Source: Nitrospirota bacterium (GTDB taxonomy: Bacteria; Nitrospirota; Thermodesulfovibrionia; UBA6902). From it: 40,308 nt of DNA. A model generated the notes under the pieces. The model searched no databases, had not been told where the DNA came from, and worked only from the letters and a program-made list of their open reading frames with translations. This document shows positions 5,480-23,706 of the stretch, piece after piece. Each line of letters begins with the position of its first letter. Position 1 is the stretch's first letter. Position numbers and translations under genes: made by a program. The stretch is taken from the NCBI GenBank assembly GCA_016214845.1, contig JACRMS010000006.1:1-40308 (forward strand). Reading direction: 5' to 3'.

Positions 5480-6202
5480 ATGGAAGAGCGGCTTCAGAAA
5501 GTATTGGCAAAATGCGGCATTGCCTCACGCAGAATGGCTGAGGAGATGATCCTTGAAGGGCTGGTGACAGTTAATGGAACCCCGGCGACACTCGGGATGA
5601 AGGCAGACCTTGAAAGGGACCATATAAAGGTGAGAGGTAAGCTCATCCGCAATGCTGAATCAAAGGTCTATCTGGTTTTAAACAAGCCGGAGAAATGTCT
5701 TACGACAATGTCCGATTCCGAGGGTAGACCGACGGTCAAGGATTTGATAAAGGGTGTGAGGGAGAAGGTTTTCCCTGTTGGAAGGCTTGACTATAATTCG
5801 GAAGGCCTCCTGATCATAACGAATGACGGAGAGCTGGCGAACGCGATACTTCACCCTGCCAAGAAGATCCCGAAGACATATCTCGTGAAGGTCAACGGAT
5901 TCATTGAAGATAAGGACCTGGCAAAACTTGAAAAAGGGATCAAGCTTGACGACGGCATGACCGCTCCGGCAAAGGTGAAGAAAATTAAAAAGACGGAAGC
6001 TAATTCGTGGATTGAGATAACAATTTATGAAGGCAGGAAAAGGCAGATCAGAAGGATGATGGACCGGGTAGGACATCCGGTTATAAAGCTCAGGAGGATT
6101 AAGATTAACGGCATCTCTCTCGGCAAGCTGGAGACCGGCGCGTTACGCTTTCTTACACCTGGAGAATTGAAGAAACTGAAACAAGAAGTCGGAGTTAATT
6201 AG
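5480..6202 (+). CDS. rluB: 23S rRNA pseudouridine synthase (RluB/RsuA family)
   Basis: A 240-residue enzyme that isomerises uridine to pseudouridine in rRNA. Residues 1-60 form an S4 RNA-binding domain (LQKVLAKCGIASRRMAEEMI). The catalytic domain carries VGRLDYNSEGLLIITNDGEL with the catalytic Asp, and ends with the family motif IYEGRKRQIRRMM. The ribosome binding site AAGGAG is only three bases from the ATG, and a TATAAT box at 5455-5460 lies just upstream. The last codons (Asn, stop) lie inside the left inverted repeat of a 154-bp MITE-like element, so the insertion probably changed the natural C-terminus. RluB fits slightly better than RsuA or RluE by length and motif. Confidence 0.88.
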   Translation: MEERLQKVLAKCGIASRRMAEEMILEGLVTVNGTPATLGMKADLERDHIKVRGKLIRNAESKVYLVLNKPEKCLTTMSDSEGRPTVKDLIKGVREKVFPVGRLDYNSEGLLIITNDGELANAILHPAKKIPKTYLVKVNGFIEDKDLAKLEKGIKLDDGMTAPAKVKKIKKTEANSWIEITIYEGRKRQIRRMMDRVGHPVIKLRRIKINGISLGKLETGALRFLTPGELKKLKQEVGVN

Positions 6203-6349
6203 AGTCTGTTTATAACTTGCTATTTTTATTTTTGTCATGCCCGAAGTCTTTAATCGGGCATCCAGAACCTATCGGAAAGACTGGATTCCCGCTCAACAGA
6301 CTGCGGGAATGACGGTTTAATGTTTGAGTTTATGGACAGACACTAATTA
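6196..6349. mobile_element. 154-bp MITE-like element, copy 1
   Basis: A non-coding element bounded by near-perfect 21-bp terminal inverted repeats (6196-6216 and 6329-6349) that contain AGAGTCTGT at the left and ACAGACACT at the right. A second copy of identical length lies at 23553-23706. Inside are two hairpins: GCCCGA...TCGGGC, and TTCCCGC...GCGGGAA flanked by GTCAT and ATGAC. No open frame is present. The outer bases read TAATTA on both sides, so the target duplication could be TA, AATT or part of the inverted repeat. Inferred to be moved in trans by a transposase not in this window. Confidence 0.8.
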
Positions 6350-6368
6350 GTAAATCAAAGGAACGATA

Positions 6369-8162
6369 ATGCTAAGAGATAAAAATTGCGGTGAAATCAG
6401 AGAGACGGATATCGGTTCAACAATCAATATTGCCGGATGGGCCAACAAATGGCGCGATCACGGAGGCGTGATATTTATTGACGTCCGCGACAGAAGCGGA
6501 ATGGTGCAGGTGGTGTTCAACCCGGAAATCAACCAGGACATACATGCCCTTGCCCACAAGATCAGAAATGAATATGTCATTCAGGTCACCGGCGAAGTGA
6601 GAAAGAGGCCGGATGGCACTATTAACTCTTCAATCCCGACCGGACAGGTCGAGATCATCGCAAAAGAATTGAAGGTGCTCAATGACTGCAAGCCGCTTCC
6701 CTTCATGGTTGAAGATGAAACAGACGCCTCGGAATATCTCAGGTACAAGCACAGGTACCTTGACCTTAGAAGACCGCGAATTCAGAAAAACCTCATAATC
6801 AGGCACAAGGCCACAAGGAGCATGCGTGAATATCTCGATGCGCTTGGCTTCCTCGATATAGAAACGCCTGTGCTTACAAAGAGCACACCCGAAGGCGCGC
6901 GCGATTATCTTGTGCCGAGCAGGACGAACCCCGGACACTTTTATGCGCTGCCGCAGTCGCCCCAGATATTCAAACAGATACTCATGGTGTCGGGACTGGA
7001 AAAATATTATCAGATCGTCAGATGCTTCAGGGACGAAGACCTCCGGGCCGACAGGCAGCCTGAATTTACACAGGTTGACATGGAGATGTCTTTTTTGAAC
7101 AGAGACGATATTATCTCGATTGTTGAGGGTATGATCAATAAAGTATTCACCGGGACGATCGGTGTGCAGATTGAGGTCCCTTTTCAAAGGCTGACGTATC
7201 GCGAGGCAATGGAAAGGTTCGGCTGCGACAAGCCGGACTTGAGGTTCTCGCTTGAGCTCAGAAACGTAAGCGACATTGTCAAGGAATCATCTTTCAAGGT
7301 GTTCCTCGACACAATTTCAAGAGGCGGCATTGTAAAAGGCATCAATGCGAAAGGCCTGGCAGGTTACTCGCGAAAAGAGCTTGACGATCTGACGAAAGAA
7401 GTCCAGGGCTACGGCGCGAAGGGCCTTGCATGGATAAAGATAAAGAACGGTTTTGAATCCCCGATAGCAAAGTTTTTCCCGGAACAATCTCTTAAGTCGC
7501 TTGCCGAGAGATTTGAGGCTGAGGATGGAGACCTGCTTCTCTTTGTCGCGGACAGCGAGAAGGTTGCCAATGACTGTTTATCGCGATTAAGGAATGAACT
7601 CGGTAAAAGGCTCGGCCTTATCAAAGAAGGCGTTTACAAATTAGTCTGGATAACTGATTTCCCTCTCTTTGAATGGAATGAGGATGAAAAGAGATTTGAA
7701 GCCATGCATCATCCTTTCACAAGCCCGATGGAAGAGGACATGGACGATTTTTTTTCTGCTTCCAACACCGAACTCTTAACTCCTAACTCTAAACTCTCTT
7801 CCGTCAGGGCGCAGGCATACGACATTGTTTTAAACGGCTACGAGATCGGCGGCGGCAGCATCCGTATTCATAAAAAAGATGCGCAGGACAGGATGTTTCA
7901 GCTTCTCAATATCAGTCAGGAAGATGCCAGCTCCAAATTCGGCTTCCTCCTTGAGGCCCTGGAATTCGGCGCTCCTCCGCATGGCGGAATCGCCCTCGGC
8001 CTCGACAGGCTTGTCATGATAATCGCGGGCGCTCAATCTATCAGAGACGTTATCGCATTCCCCAAGACCCAGAAGGCGATCTGCCCGCTCAGCAACGCCC
8101 CTTCCACGGTAGATGAAAAGCAGTTGAAAGAACTCAGCATCAAGCTGGATATAGTGGAATAA
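6369..8162 (+). CDS. aspS: Aspartyl-tRNA synthetase
   Basis: A 597-residue class II synthetase that charges tRNA-Asp (possibly also tRNA-Asn). An N-terminal OB fold ([20 protein letters not shown]) binds the anticodon; motif 2 is [18 protein letters not shown]; motif 3 is [12 protein letters not shown]. The bacterial GAD insertion lies around residues 290-410. AAAGGA at 6357-6362 supports the start, just beyond the MITE. Two oddities: residues about 468-477 are encoded by four tandem heptamers (7771-7798), adding a few residues to a loop before the conserved [15 protein letters not shown]; and the last 54 bases (8109-8162) are repeated at 11374-11427 as the border of an integrated island. Confidence 0.97.
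7771..7798. repeat. Heptanucleotide array inside aspS
   Basis: Four tandem heptamers: AACTCTT, AACTCCT, AACTCTA, AACTCTC. They are read in frame as part of the AspRS sequence [13 protein letters not shown], in a loop after the MHHPFTSP motif. Confidence 0.8.
8109..8162 (+). repeat. att-like direct repeat, aspS end (left border)
   Basis: The last 54 bases of aspS, encoding [17 protein letters not shown] and the stop, recur at 11374-11427 with two mismatches (52 of 54 identical). The match stops abruptly after the stop codon. This is the expected arrangement for an element integrated at the 3' end of a conserved gene while preserving that gene. Confidence 0.88.
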
Positions 8163-8368
8163 GAGGGCAGGACAATTACCCTTAAGAAAGTGGCGGAGTG
8201 TTTCCTTTCCTGTAACAGGCTTGCAAGTGTTTTGGCCGGGCAGTGACAAGGATCGCGCCTTCAGTCCTTCCCGTCTGCCCCCTTAAGGGGACGCCCCTTT
8301 CTATTTTATCTTGTCGATTTTTACATTCATAATTATTCTTTCTAATCTGATATAGTTAACTGAAGATC
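8163..8368. promoter_or_regulatory. Leader of the island with a hairpin
   Basis: These 206 bases after aspS contain short GC-rich palindromes around 8279-8300 (CCCTTAAGGG, then GGGGACGCCCC followed by a T-rich stretch), which may end aspS transcription. The rest is AT-rich and leads into the next gene. No sequence match to the end of the island, other than the 54-bp repeat, was seen. Confidence 0.4.
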
Positions 8369-9505
8369 ATGTACAACGTCACAGACACCGGAGTGTTAAA
8401 AACAGTTGAGAGTTGGTGTGTAACGATACCACTCCACGATAATGATAAACAGCCCTTTGATGAATCTACGGTTGATTCAATCTTGCAAGATATACTGCTT
8501 AACTATCCTGGTTTCAGTATTGCAAACTCTATGGGCTACTGGAAGGGCTCCGACAGAACGTACGTTGATAAAAATTATCAAATAATGATTGATGCAGTTC
8601 CCGACCAGTTGGAGGAATCCTCCAATTTTTTTGCAACATTAAAGCAAGATTTACAGACGCGTCTTCGCCAAGAAAAAATTTACATAACCAAACAAGATTC
8701 AAAGCAAGAGTTTCTGACCTTTCAAGAATTTTTCGACGACGTCGGCGTTCACGCGCATAGTCATGACTTAAGGCAAGAGGCTGCCGAGCTTGCGAAGAAG
8801 CTCGCAGGAAGTCTGGACTTTGTACTTCAGCGGTTGGGTTACGAAACTACAGCTCTTCGCCGAGATCATGAACAAAAGAAAATTATTTGGGAACGTAAAC
8901 TATGTGGAATCAAAATAAGATCCGAATTTGATGATTCATATCCTGATGTCAACATAATCGCAGCAGATCAATTCCTCAATATTGGTAACGCCATTCTTAG
9001 TGGTAAACCTTTTGTGCTTATTGGCACTTATGAGTTTCAATTCTATATTTTGGAAAAAAAACGTCGACGCAGCCTGGTTAAAGTAAATGAAACAATAATA
9101 AACTCTGCAAAATATACCAAATACTTTTCTCCTATAGAAGAACCATTGAGCACGACAGAGTTCATCGAGGACTTTACGATGTCTGTTTTTGTAAATTGGC
9201 TCATATTACGGGACGAAGGCTTCTTGCCGAACGAGATAAAAATTAGCGTTGGTGGAGACGGGTCTTTACAGATTGGTTTGAGCGACATCGGTAGGATTAT
9301 GCTTCATTGCCCGGCAGCTATTCCCGAAAAGATTGTGCAAACAGAAATCATTAGATGCTTGTCCATTGCCATAAATCATTCAGAAACTAATACTATTGAC
9401 CCAATCGCAGTGCTACAAGCAAAAGCCAACAACAATTATATCCTTAAACGCGCGTTCGTGCGTAGCCTTTTAAGAAAAATACATGACCAAAAGAAAGAAA
9501 TCTAA
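8369..9505 (+). CDS. Hypothetical protein of the island
   Basis: A 378-residue protein I do not recognise. It has no signal peptide, no clear membrane helix and no cysteine motif. The N-terminal third is acidic with the phrase NYPGFSIANSMGYWKGSDRTYVDKNYQIMIDAVPD, the middle is rich in charged helices (about residues 125-180), and the C-terminus is basic (RAFVRSLLRKIHDQKKEI). VGGDGSLQIGLSDIGRIMLH near residue 290 is the most strand-like conserved-looking segment. Base composition is more AT-rich than aspS. No good ribosome binding site precedes the ATG. Its place beside a PDDEXK nuclease and a recombinase suggests accessory, perhaps defence-related, cargo; that is inference. Confidence 0.7.
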   Translation: MYNVTDTGVLKTVESWCVTIPLHDNDKQPFDESTVDSILQDILLNYPGFSIANSMGYWKGSDRTYVDKNYQIMIDAVPDQLEESSNFFATLKQDLQTRLRQEKIYITKQDSKQEFLTFQEFFDDVGVHAHSHDLRQEAAELAKKLAGSLDFVLQRLGYETTALRRDHEQKKIIWERKLCGIKIRSEFDDSYPDVNIIAADQFLNIGNAILSGKPFVLIGTYEFQFYILEKKRRRSLVKVNETIINSAKYTKYFSPIEEPLSTTEFIEDFTMSVFVNWLILRDEGFLPNEIKISVGGDGSLQIGLSDIGRIMLHCPAAIPEKIVQTEIIRCLSIAINHSETNTIDPIAVLQAKANNNYILKRAFVRSLLRKIHDQKKEI

Positions 9506-9590
9506 TCAACAATCTGCTCATTTTAGTGCAACCTAATTATTTATAACTAAATCTATGCTACAGCGCCGACGGCTTCAACGTTACATCCCC

Positions 9591-9803
9591 CTACTGCAAA
9601 ACCCCAAAAACAAACTCCCCTTCCTTTGCAATATGCCACTTATTCCCCGGCTTAAAATAAACAGTCCCTTTTGTCAGTTGTGTCGGCCCTGACGCATCAT
9701 ATAAAGAAAAATCATTTGTTTTTTTCAATGATTTTTGTATAGTAAACATGGGCTTTGTTTCAGCAATTTTAATAATCCGGATTTTAAAGGGGTTTTTCCG
9801 CAC
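9591..9803 (-). CDS. Short minus-strand frame, possible gene remnant
   Basis: A 70-codon frame starting at a GTG, product not recognised. It ends VYFKPGNKWHIAKEGEFVFGVLQ-like (split here: KPGNKWHIAKEGEF, then VFGVLQ), which reads like the C-terminal end of a real protein. The frame stays open upstream into the antisense of the neighbouring nuclease gene without a better start. It may be the tail of a gene truncated when the nuclease gene arrived, or chance. It accounts for most of the 329-base gap between the two larger genes. Confidence 0.25.
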   Translation of the reverse strand: MRKNPFKIRIIKIAETKPMFTIQKSLKKTNDFSLYDASGPTQLTKGTVYFKPGNKWHIAKEGEFVFGVLQ

Positions 9804-9834
9804 CAGTTCAAACGCAGTAAAAATATAATCGTGT

Positions 9835-10833
9835 ATGCCGAAGAAAAAGTATTTACCATCTGTGACTAATCAACGTCTTTCATCTGAGCAGAACTATAAA
9901 AACTTATTGCAAGAGTTGAAAGGTATTCTTGCTAAAGCCAAATATGCAGCCTATAAAGCTGTTGACAATATCAGGGTGCAAACTTACTGGCAACTGGGCG
10001 AGCGGATCGTCAGAGAAGAGCTTAAACACAAAGACCGCGCTGATTATGGAAAGATATTAATTATAAATTTGGCTAAAGACTTAGACGTTGGTGAGCGGCT
10101 TCTATACGAAATAGTAAAGTTTTATAGAGTATATCCAATTATGCACACAGTGCGTGCAGAATTAAGTTGGAGTCATTACGGCCATTTAATTGAGCGTGAG
10201 AATAGCAAGGAACGAGCTTTCTATCAAAATCAGGCAATCTTAAACTCCTGGAGCGTCCGGGAACTAAAACGGCAAATTAAGGCCACTCTCTATGATAATA
10301 CGCCACGGCAGGAAATCGAAGATATTTTTAAGACTAAATTGCCAGCAGTGGACACGCAGAAGGTTTTCAAAAACACTTACGATTTCCGCCCGTTTATAGA
10401 ACTTCACCCTGAGAAAAGCGAAAAGGCCCTGGAAAACAAGATACTGGAAAACTTTGAAATGTTTCTGCGCGAGTTAGGTGAAGATTTCAGCATCTTGGGA
10501 CGGCAGGTCCCGCTTAAAATAGACGGGGAGACACACTATATTGACATCGTTTTATATCATCGCGGCATTCCCTGCATGGTGCTTGTAGACCTTAAAATCG
10601 GTAAGTTGGATAGCCGTGACATTGGCCAGATGAATAAATATGTTGGCTATTATCGGCGCAATAAACAGTATACGCATGAAAAGGAAACGATCGGGCTTAT
10701 TATTTGCCGTGAGGCTGGACGAGAAGAAATTACCTACGCCCTGGACGGATTGGAAGAAAAGATATTTGTAGCCAAGTATAAGGTAAAGCTACCAAGCAAC
10801 GAGAAAATAAAGAGAGCGCTAAAGAAATTATGA
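9835..10833 (+). CDS. DUF1016 family PDDEXK nuclease (YhcG-like)
   Basis: A 332-residue protein of the DUF1016/YhcG family. Residues about 20-160 match the N-terminal domain (YWQLGERIVREE, LSWSHYGHLI, SWSVRELKRQI). The C-terminal domain (about 215-320) is a PDDEXK nuclease fold: YIDIVLYHRGIPCMVLVDLKIGKLDS supplies the Asp and the Asp-x-Lys catalytic pair, followed by GQMNKYVGYY. Family members occur in defence islands and beside restriction-modification and mobile genes; the exact role is poorly known. No ribosome binding site is visible; a TATAAT at about 9824-9829 lies very near the ATG, so the message could be almost leaderless. It sits directly upstream of the recombinase. Confidence 0.88.
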   Translation: MPKKKYLPSVTNQRLSSEQNYKNLLQELKGILAKAKYAAYKAVDNIRVQTYWQLGERIVREELKHKDRADYGKILIINLAKDLDVGERLLYEIVKFYRVYPIMHTVRAELSWSHYGHLIERENSKERAFYQNQAILNSWSVRELKRQIKATLYDNTPRQEIEDIFKTKLPAVDTQKVFKNTYDFRPFIELHPEKSEKALENKILENFEMFLRELGEDFSILGRQVPLKIDGETHYIDIVLYHRGIPCMVLVDLKIGKLDSRDIGQMNKYVGYYRRNKQYTHEKETIGLIICREAGREEITYALDGLEEKIFVAKYKVKLPSNEKIKRALKKL

Positions 10834-10896
10834 AATATTGCACACAGCGTGTGCAGAATTTATTTGCGAATCCCTCCGGGCTTCTATACAACCAAC

Positions 10897-11427
10897 ATGA
10901 TTAAAAAATACAAATCCGTTGCAGTCTATGCACGGGTATCAACCGACAAGCAAAAAGTTGATATGCAGCTCCAGGAGCTCAACGATTTTATTAAACGCTC
11001 CGGATGGAAGCTTTATAAGCAATACATAGATCACGGTTACACCGGCGCGAATACGAAACGTCCGGACTTCTCTAACATGCTGATCGATGCCAGACAACGG
11101 AAGTTTGATATCCTGGTAGTCTGGAAGCTCGACCGGCTGAGCAGGTCCTTGAAGGACCTGCTCAATACTTTAGACGACCTCGGGCACCTCGGCATTGATT
11201 TTATTTCTTATGATAATCACCTGAACACATCCACGCCGACCGGCAAACTTGTCTTTCAGATCATCGGCGCAGTTGCGGAGTTTGAGAAGGACATTATCCG
11301 GGAAAGGGTAAAGGCTGGGCTTAACAATGCTAAAAGCAAAGGGAAGCAGCTTGGGCAGGCCGACAATACCAGAGTTGATGAAAAGCAGTTGAAAGAACTG
11401 AGCATCAAGCTGGATATAGTGGAATAA
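10897..11427 (+). CDS. Serine site-specific recombinase with an aspS-derived C-terminus
   Basis: Resolvase/invertase family enzyme that cuts and rejoins DNA through a serine. I chose the ATG at 10897 (MIKKYKSVAVYARVSTDKQ); a longer frame opens at 10849 but adds a non-family N-terminus. YARVSTDKQ contains the catalytic Ser; VVWKLDRLSRSLKD and AEFEKDIIRERVKAGLNNAKSKGKQLG are the conserved core and helix E. The family's helix-turn-helix DNA-binding domain (about 45 residues) should follow but is absent. After GQADNTR the protein ends [17 protein letters not shown], the exact C-terminus of AspRS, with 52 of 54 bases shared. The protein is therefore a fusion created at the integration border, about 176 residues. 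Activity is uncertain. Confidence 0.88.
   Translation: MIKKYKSVAVYARVSTDKQKVDMQLQELNDFIKRSGWKLYKQYIDHGYTGANTKRPDFSNMLIDARQRKFDILVVWKLDRLSRSLKDLLNTLDDLGHLGIDFISYDNHLNTSTPTGKLVFQIIGAVAEFEKDIIRERVKAGLNNAKSKGKQLGQADNTRVDEKQLKELSIKLDIVE
11374..11427 (+). repeat. att-like direct repeat, right border of the island
   Basis: Second copy of the aspS 3' end, differing from 8109-8162 at two positions (T for A at 11376 and G for C at 11400). It forms the last codons of the recombinase frame. Flanking bases on both sides differ from those around the aspS copy. Confidence 0.88.
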
Positions 11428-11745
11428 TACCTAAATCGATTGAATCAGCAAATAAAGATATAAAGATCAGGCAATCAGAAATGCCGTTTTATGCTTTAAC
11501 TCTTTGAAATTTCGATGCATCCGGTTTAATGGCAATAAAAATAAGCAAAGATTATAAATTAATTTAAATTTTTATATTGACTCTGTATAACCTCTTTCAT
11601 ATTATAGGTACTCGTTAATTCTTCTTCATACGATTTTTTAAGGATTAATACCACAAACGGATTCTGCCTATTTAATTAATAGGAGTTTATTTTTAAAGAA
11701 ACAGGTTTTTATTATCTTTCATAATTAAGTGAAAAGGAGACGCAA
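11428..11745. promoter_or_regulatory. AT-rich upstream region of adk with a sigma-70-type promoter
   Basis: These 318 bases contain no gene. TTGACT at 11577-11582 and TATTAT at 11600-11605 are spaced by 17 bases, a good match to a housekeeping promoter, giving a leader of roughly 130 bases before adk. The rest is AT-rich. This is the most likely promoter for adk and possibly sat. Confidence 0.6.
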
Positions 11746-12390
11746 ATGAGACTTGTATTGTTAGGAGCCCCGGGGGCCGGAAAAGGCACTCAGGCAAAAA
11801 AACTCATAGAGAAATACGGCATACCTCAGATTTCCACAGGTGATATCCTGAGAAAGGCCGTTGCAGACGGCACCCCGCTCGGAAAAGAAGCAAAATCATA
11901 TATGGACTCAGGCGGACTTGTCCCTGATTCCGTTGTTATAGGACTGGTAAAGGAAAGAATTGCCCAGGATGATTGCAAGAAGGGTTATATCCTGGACGGC
12001 TTTCCAAGGACTACACCACAGGCCGAGGCGCTCGACAAAGTCCTGGTCGAGATGAAAGCCCCCCTTGATACAGCGCTCAGCGTGGACGTCGATATGGACA
12101 TCCTCATGAAGAGACTTACCGGCAGAAGGACCTGCAAGGGCTGCCAGCAGATGTACAATATCTATTTCGGCGCACCAAAAAAAGAAGGCACCTGCGATAA
12201 GTGCGGCGGAGAGCTTTTTCAGAGGGCCGACGACAAAGAAGAGACGATAAAAAACAGGCTTGCCGTATATGAGAAATCCACTGCGCCCCTCATGGACTAT
12301 TACGGCAAGAAAAACATACTGAAATCAGTCCAGGGGATGGGGAGCGTTGACGAGATATTCAATAAAGTCTGTAAGATTCTTGGATCTTAA
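11746..12390 (+). CDS. adk: Adenylate kinase
   Basis: A 214-residue enzyme that interconverts ATP + AMP and 2 ADP. The P-loop GAPGAGKGTQA starts at residue 7; STGDILR and DGFPRT are the AMP-binding motifs; GRRTC starts the lid. The lid carries four cysteines (Cys130, 133, 150, 153), so it is the zinc-binding long form. AAGGAG precedes the ATG. In sulfate reducers, AprBA releases AMP for every sulfate, and Adk is needed to return it to ADP, which explains its place ahead of sat. All nine arginines use AGA or AGG. Confidence 0.97.
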   Translation: MRLVLLGAPGAGKGTQAKKLIEKYGIPQISTGDILRKAVADGTPLGKEAKSYMDSGGLVPDSVVIGLVKERIAQDDCKKGYILDGFPRTTPQAEALDKVLVEMKAPLDTALSVDVDMDILMKRLTGRRTCKGCQQMYNIYFGAPKKEGTCDKCGGELFQRADDKEETIKNRLAVYEKSTAPLMDYYGKKNILKSVQGMGSVDEIFNKVCKILGS

Positions 12391-23552: not shown

Positions 23553-23706
23553 TAATTAGAGTCTGTCCATAAATTACTGTTTTCTATTTTCGTCATGCCC
23601 GAAGTCAGTAATCGGGCATCCAGAACTTATTAAAATACTGGATTCCCGCTCGACAGACTGCGGGAATGACAGTTCAATGTTTTAGTTTATGGACAGACTC
23701 TAATTA
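23553..23706. mobile_element. 154-bp MITE-like element, copy 2
   Basis: Same length and internal structure as the copy at 6196-6349, with perfect 21-bp terminal inverted repeats (23553-23573 and 23686-23706). Internal hairpins are the same GCCCGA/TCGGGC and TTCCCGC/GCGGGAA pairs. It lies in the convergent gap between hppA and pilT. The perfect inverted repeats suggest it is the younger or less decayed copy. Confidence 0.82.

Follow-up and report, generated by a model that had tools for sequence, protein, structure and literature searches.

A probable serine recombinase pseudogene running into an orphan aspS tail in the aspS-adk gap of a Nitrospirota bacterium

In a 40,308-nucleotide stretch of Nitrospirota DNA (the window, corresponding to the entire contig G000:C6 of a draft genome), an open reading frame (ORF) at 10897-11427 begins as a serine recombinase and ends as the C terminus of aspartyl-tRNA synthetase (AspRS). 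With a probability of roughly 80%, this ORF represents a pseudogene derived from an invertase/resolvase-type small serine recombinase, an enzyme made of a core and a C-terminal helix-turn-helix (HTH). It most likely belongs to a decayed cassette of a site, a YhcG gene and a recombinase gene, located in an aspS-adk gap that has been invaded recurrently. The feature is real and its explanation is ordinary, namely a gene of a decayed mobile cassette fused by accident to an orphan aspS tail. Judging from its sequence, the protein encoded by the fused ORF would be non-functional. The features concerned are as follows.

6369-8162, forward strand: aspS, the complete gene for AspRS, whose last 54-59 nt are the left repeat copy
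8104-8162, forward strand: left copy of the aspS 3' tail, inside the functional gene (repeat comparison)
8369-9505, forward strand: 378-aa ORF with no Pfam, NCBIfam or PADLOC match
9706-9804, forward strand: conserved segment with a degraded copy of a 28-bp palindrome, a -10-like box and ATTTTAAAGGGGTTTTTCCGCACC; candidate site/promoter of the cassette
9835-10833, forward strand: YhcG-type PDDEXK nuclease, cargo of the cassette (DUF1016_N and YhcG_C; PADLOC candidate defence family PDC-S02)
10897-11354, forward strand: catalytic core of the serine recombinase, frame intact, with YARVS and DRLSR motifs (Pfam, structure relatives, alignment)
11344-11358, forward strand: stretch with a +1 frameshift relative to close homologues, CTTGGGC versus CTTGGC (DNA alignment)
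11355-11371, forward strand: out-of-frame linker remnant LGRPTIPE (LGRPPIPQ in homologues), where recombinase homology stops (DNA alignment, tblastn)
11374-11427, forward strand: right copy of the aspS 3' tail, encoding the C-terminal end of the truncated recombinase (repeat comparison, genome search)
11428-11745, forward strand: native aspS-adk intergenic region, found directly 3' of aspS in genome G021 and, 94% identical, with an aspS tail copy and adk in genome G006
11746-12390, forward strand: adk (adenylate kinase), native right flank (ORF, Pfam)

Residues 8-150 of the ORF at 10897-11427 match the Pfam Resolvase family (PF00239, E = 2e-46), and the core was aligned to PDB entries 4m6f, 3uj3 and 1gdt, the best solved relatives being DNA invertases and the catalytic domain of the TP901-1 integrase. 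The ORF thus has the resolvase-type catalytic domain with serine and arginine motifs that defines a small serine recombinase. The core frame is open for about 152 codons with its catalytic motifs intact, a point against the pseudogene reading, suggesting that the loss is recent or that the core might still be made. The C-terminal HTH with which such enzymes bind their recombination site is missing from the window protein, as the sequence-only reading had noted: the Pfam profile search returned the Resolvase match only, with no HTH model after it. Instead, the protein reads QADNTR after GKQLG, followed by 17 residues identical to the AspRS C terminus. That reading had also placed the end of the core at GKQLG, which holds for the in-frame core, but the recombinase-derived DNA runs on out of frame to about 11370.

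A contig scan uncovered four closer relatives of the recombinase, L007 (73% amino acid identity), L008 (71%) and the degraded L009 and L011. The L007 and L008 proteins (212 and 210 aa, respectively) read on as GKRLGRPPIPQ and then as an HTH, which is weakly scored and typical. The window DNA aligns with both up to 11370 with one extra base near 11354, and tblastn recovered GSSLGRPTIPE at 11342-11374 in the other frame. The gene therefore has a frameshift and a truncation, the former destroying the GRP linker of the homologues and the latter having taken all sequence 3' of the linker. The comparison with full-length homologues, suggested by the sequence-only reading, thus shows a truncated enzyme, and the homologues end in an HTH; the same short tail, which that reading would have counted against itself, was not found in them. 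It is because of the frameshift at about 11354 that the recombinase frame enters the AspRS frame, a one-in-three outcome of chance frame position. The extra base could be an assembly error; without it, however, the frame reads LGRPTIPELMKSS and then stops inside the aspS tail, a few codons past the junction, so the recombinase is truncated either way. No intact copy close enough to give the exact lost sequence was found: within the same order there were only stubs or 38% relatives and no closer intact homologue, and viral contigs yielded relatives at 33-39% only.

The aspS 3' end is present in the window as a direct repeat (8104-8162 and 11369-11427) with 93% identity across 59 nt. Between 8109-8162 and 11374-11427, 52 of 54 positions are identical and 2 differ, and the same TAA closes both copies, confirming the earlier claim that the recombinase frame enters a copied aspS 3' end and shares its stop. 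When 11300-11427 was searched against the whole genome, two places only were hit, the aspS copy with E = 4e-19; the repeat is far beyond chance. In G021, from the same family, a homologue of window 11428-11745 directly follows aspS and leads to adk, and in G026 a short gap separates aspS from adk, indicating that the right copy and the DNA downstream of it are the native locus and that 8163-11371 was inserted. Other genus members carry different DNA in this gap. The insert is thereby flanked by a direct repeat of a gene 3' end with native DNA to its right, as is an element targeting gene 3' ends; beside the repeat lies only a broken serine recombinase and no cognate integrase.

A tail duplication was also found in the sister species G006 (L107 2651-2720 and L055), in which a 70-nt aspS-tail remnant, 97% identical to window 8093-8162, precedes the intergenic region and adk, and the full aspS lies on another contig with different downstream DNA. 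The left neighbour of the remnant is an unrelated long gene with repeated domains. No recombinase copy was found in G006 at E <= 1e-20, so nothing ties the recombinase to recombination at aspS. The G006 duplication is either independent of that in the window or older. These comparisons support the view that DNA has entered the aspS-adk gap more than once. Insertion here recurs within this bacterial group; at least two inserts have left orphan aspS tails, and such tails are usable as markers of past insertions. The open literature searched gave no relevant match for aspS as an integration site.

The layout of the cassette deserves more attention than the fusion. Its proposed order is a conserved upstream site, the YhcG nuclease and, last, the recombinase. 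The segment of about 100 bp at 9706-9804 recurs in the same genome (contig C1), in G005 (twice), in G007 and in G027, lying immediately 5' of either YhcG or a recombinase stub. It contains a 28-bp palindrome, TGCGGAAAAAACA-TT-TGTTTTTTCCGCA (13+2+13), which is perfect in G005 and degraded in the window; the arm recurs once more as a partial copy, and a -10-like box (TATAGT) is also present. L007 and L008 have the same layout, with AGCGGATAAAACA-TT-TGATTTATCCGCT plus TTAAGGGTTTTTTTCCGCAC or similar, and different genes between the segment and the recombinase; the exchangeable cargo at this position is a YhcG nuclease, an AAA ATPase or none. In L111 and L113, A-T stands on both sides of the palindrome in place of a C-G pair. 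The copies of the segment are as follows.

Window 9706-9804, forward strand
L064 9230-9328, reverse strand
L108 8902-9027
L109 6814-6940, reverse strand
L111
L113
L007 4457-4563
L008 289-395

A 28-bp palindrome with a two-base centre has the geometry of a small serine recombinase crossover site, and the conserved palindromic segment is more likely than aspS to be the site of this enzyme. The palindrome is also a possible terminator hairpin followed by T's, with a fold z of -4.3; the segment could accordingly act either as a terminator-promoter or as a res-type site whose promoter is autoregulated. No copy of the palindrome was found in viral contigs, and an Rfam search of 6000-12000 gave one match, far below the gathering score (E = 0.29).

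Broken copies of the recombinase occur elsewhere and were counted in favour of the pseudogene reading. In C1 and in G044, two recombinase stubs flank a pair of HTH and nucleotidyltransferase genes, and in G005 and G027 short N-terminal stubs lie behind the conserved segment. The HTH-nucleotidyltransferase pair is toxin-antitoxin-like (L064 7873-9204 in C1; L065 3754-4978 in G044) and lies between fragments of one recombinase gene in direct repeat, whose break points differ between the genomes. In C1, genes for a TIR-like protein (ThsB_TIR), an 8xMP membrane protein and an AAA protein lie beside a recombinase stub (L064 9478-11807), and an insert of about 3.2 kb with these genes interrupts, in C1, DNA that runs unbroken at window 9554-9804.

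Several further observations concern the island and its surroundings. The 378-aa ORF at 8369-9505 has no homologue in 296 genomes of the phylum or in plasmids. Near the left end of the island, the intergenic stretch 8220-8296 is 91% identical to an 80-bp stretch (L108 4721-4800) on contig G005:C59, which also carries a YhcG cassette; no Rfam family was found for it. A near-repeat, GCACACAG..TGCAGAATT, occurs at 10141-10160, inside the YhcG gene, and at 10846-10866, where it forms a small palindrome between YhcG and the recombinase that is present in G044 too. An interspersed repeat of about 150 bp, TAATTAGAGTCTG ... CAGACACTAATTA, at 6196-6349 and 23553-23706 has relatives in other genus members and looks like a miniature inverted-repeat element.

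The sequence-only reading had suggested, as one of two options, that excision restores a longer frame, so that integration itself would switch the enzyme off. Since the repeat copies are in register and share their final TAA, the frame cannot be lengthened by excision via the repeat; the crossovers tested in the repeat (11371-11374) all gave the same tail and stop, the terminal peptide of the circle being unchanged by crossover position bar one residue at its start. Joining the 11373 side to 8163 onwards, the check proposed with that suggestion, produced no HTH across the predicted circle junction, and direct joins of 11366-11374 to 8163 gave short extensions with no HTH. When the HTH regions of the homologues were searched by tblastn, nothing convincing was found in 8163-8500 (the island left end) or the rest of the window, which returned only the out-of-frame LGRPTIPE scrap. 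Thus neither mark of an integrase gene inactivated by its own integration (attP within int) was found, that is, the missing gene part at the opposite end or a circle restoring the full frame, and an integration-dependent switch is without support in the sequence. The gene was in any case broken by a frameshift upstream of the junction, and the off-switch was not borne out. It is accordingly very improbable that the aspS tail served the recombinase as attB/attP and that integration by the enzyme cut its own gene: the recombinase directly abuts the right repeat, as integrases often do, but besides the unrestored HTH and the position of the frameshift, the conserved palindromic segment, upstream of the cassette and away from aspS, is a better candidate site, and G006 has the tail duplication without a detectable copy of the enzyme. 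It is harder still to credit that the fused protein is made and that its AspRS-like tail is an element-borne attachment sequence coding a natural recombinase C terminus; if it were, the enzyme and its target would share one coding sequence. The self-silencing integrase is an attractive reading but a wrong one and is removed; a frameshift combined with a duplicated gene tail can look like a fusion made by design.

For the pseudogene, we propose that insertion of DNA between aspS and adk left two tail copies, one in the gene and one beside adk, and that the 3' part of the recombinase gene, as far as somewhere within the right tail copy, was lost either in this same illegitimate join or through later decay, the joint probably having formed at a short homology near CCAGAGTTGATG / CCACAGTTGATG. 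With the one-base frameshift at about 11354, what was left of the frame would read through the AspRS tail to its stop. That the fusion arose by deletion or an illegitimate join, and the order of these events, are what we infer. Two routes of tail duplication, both compatible with the pseudogene reading, may be considered, each of them tentative, and we make no firm choice between them. By one route, another, now lost integrase would have integrated site-specifically at the aspS 3' end, the element's own aspS tail restoring the gene and displacing the original tail to the right, with the recombinase riding along and losing its end at the right-hand boundary. In favour of this route, the last base of the repeat coincides with the end of the stop codon in the window and in G006 alike, which would be expected of an insert that has to restore aspS, and sister species carry different inserts at the same gene; however, neither a tyrosine integrase nor a large serine integrase lies in the island, the junctions differ (the tail copy begins at the 8109 equivalent in the window and the 8093 equivalent in G006), and no significant excess of tail differences marks one aspS tail as foreign (7/70 versus 20/283 in the rest of the gene, p = 0.45). 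On the same comparison, the idea that the G006 aspS tail is foreign was dropped. By the other route, homology-facilitated illegitimate recombination (HFIR), linear DNA from a close relative carrying aspS and the downstream island would have come in, paired at aspS and been linked through microhomology to the tail of the resident aspS, so that the old tail stayed behind as an orphan. The outcome of HFIR, a complete aspS with an orphaned 3' end next to the native downstream DNA, matches the window and G006, and the recombinase-aspS joint would arise in the same step, but HFIR is rare (PMC5361080, PMC3240628) and no mosaic signal was detected in aspS. An HFIR-type route has been proposed for orphaned 3' ends at Rhs and T6SS loci (PMC5361080). 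No footprint identifying the route of tail duplication was found.

Elements of the guaA, prfC and tRNA type integrate into gene 3' ends and restore the gene. The window island resembles them in the intact host gene on the left, the orphan 3' end on the right and a repeat ending at the stop codon, but it has no integrase and its boundaries differ between related genomes. Two further systems come near: integrases of the SSV1 type, which are split by their own integration, attP lying inside int, and integration-dependent phage immunity. Both share with the window gene a host-sequence repeat inside a recombinase ORF; in the window, by contrast, the rest of the gene is missing from the far end of the island, and excision would leave the gene incomplete. 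At loci with 3' ends orphaned by HFIR (PMC5361080, PMC3240628), an old 3' end is likewise kept downstream of new DNA; different from these, the gene in the window is a housekeeping synthetase, and no donor or mosaic signal was found. The closest likeness in the protein is to small serine recombinases (DNA invertase/resolvase), which it matches in the core (residues 8-150, with YARVS and DRLSR), whereas their C-terminal HTH has been lost from the window enzyme by frameshift and truncation and 17 AspRS residues stand in its place.
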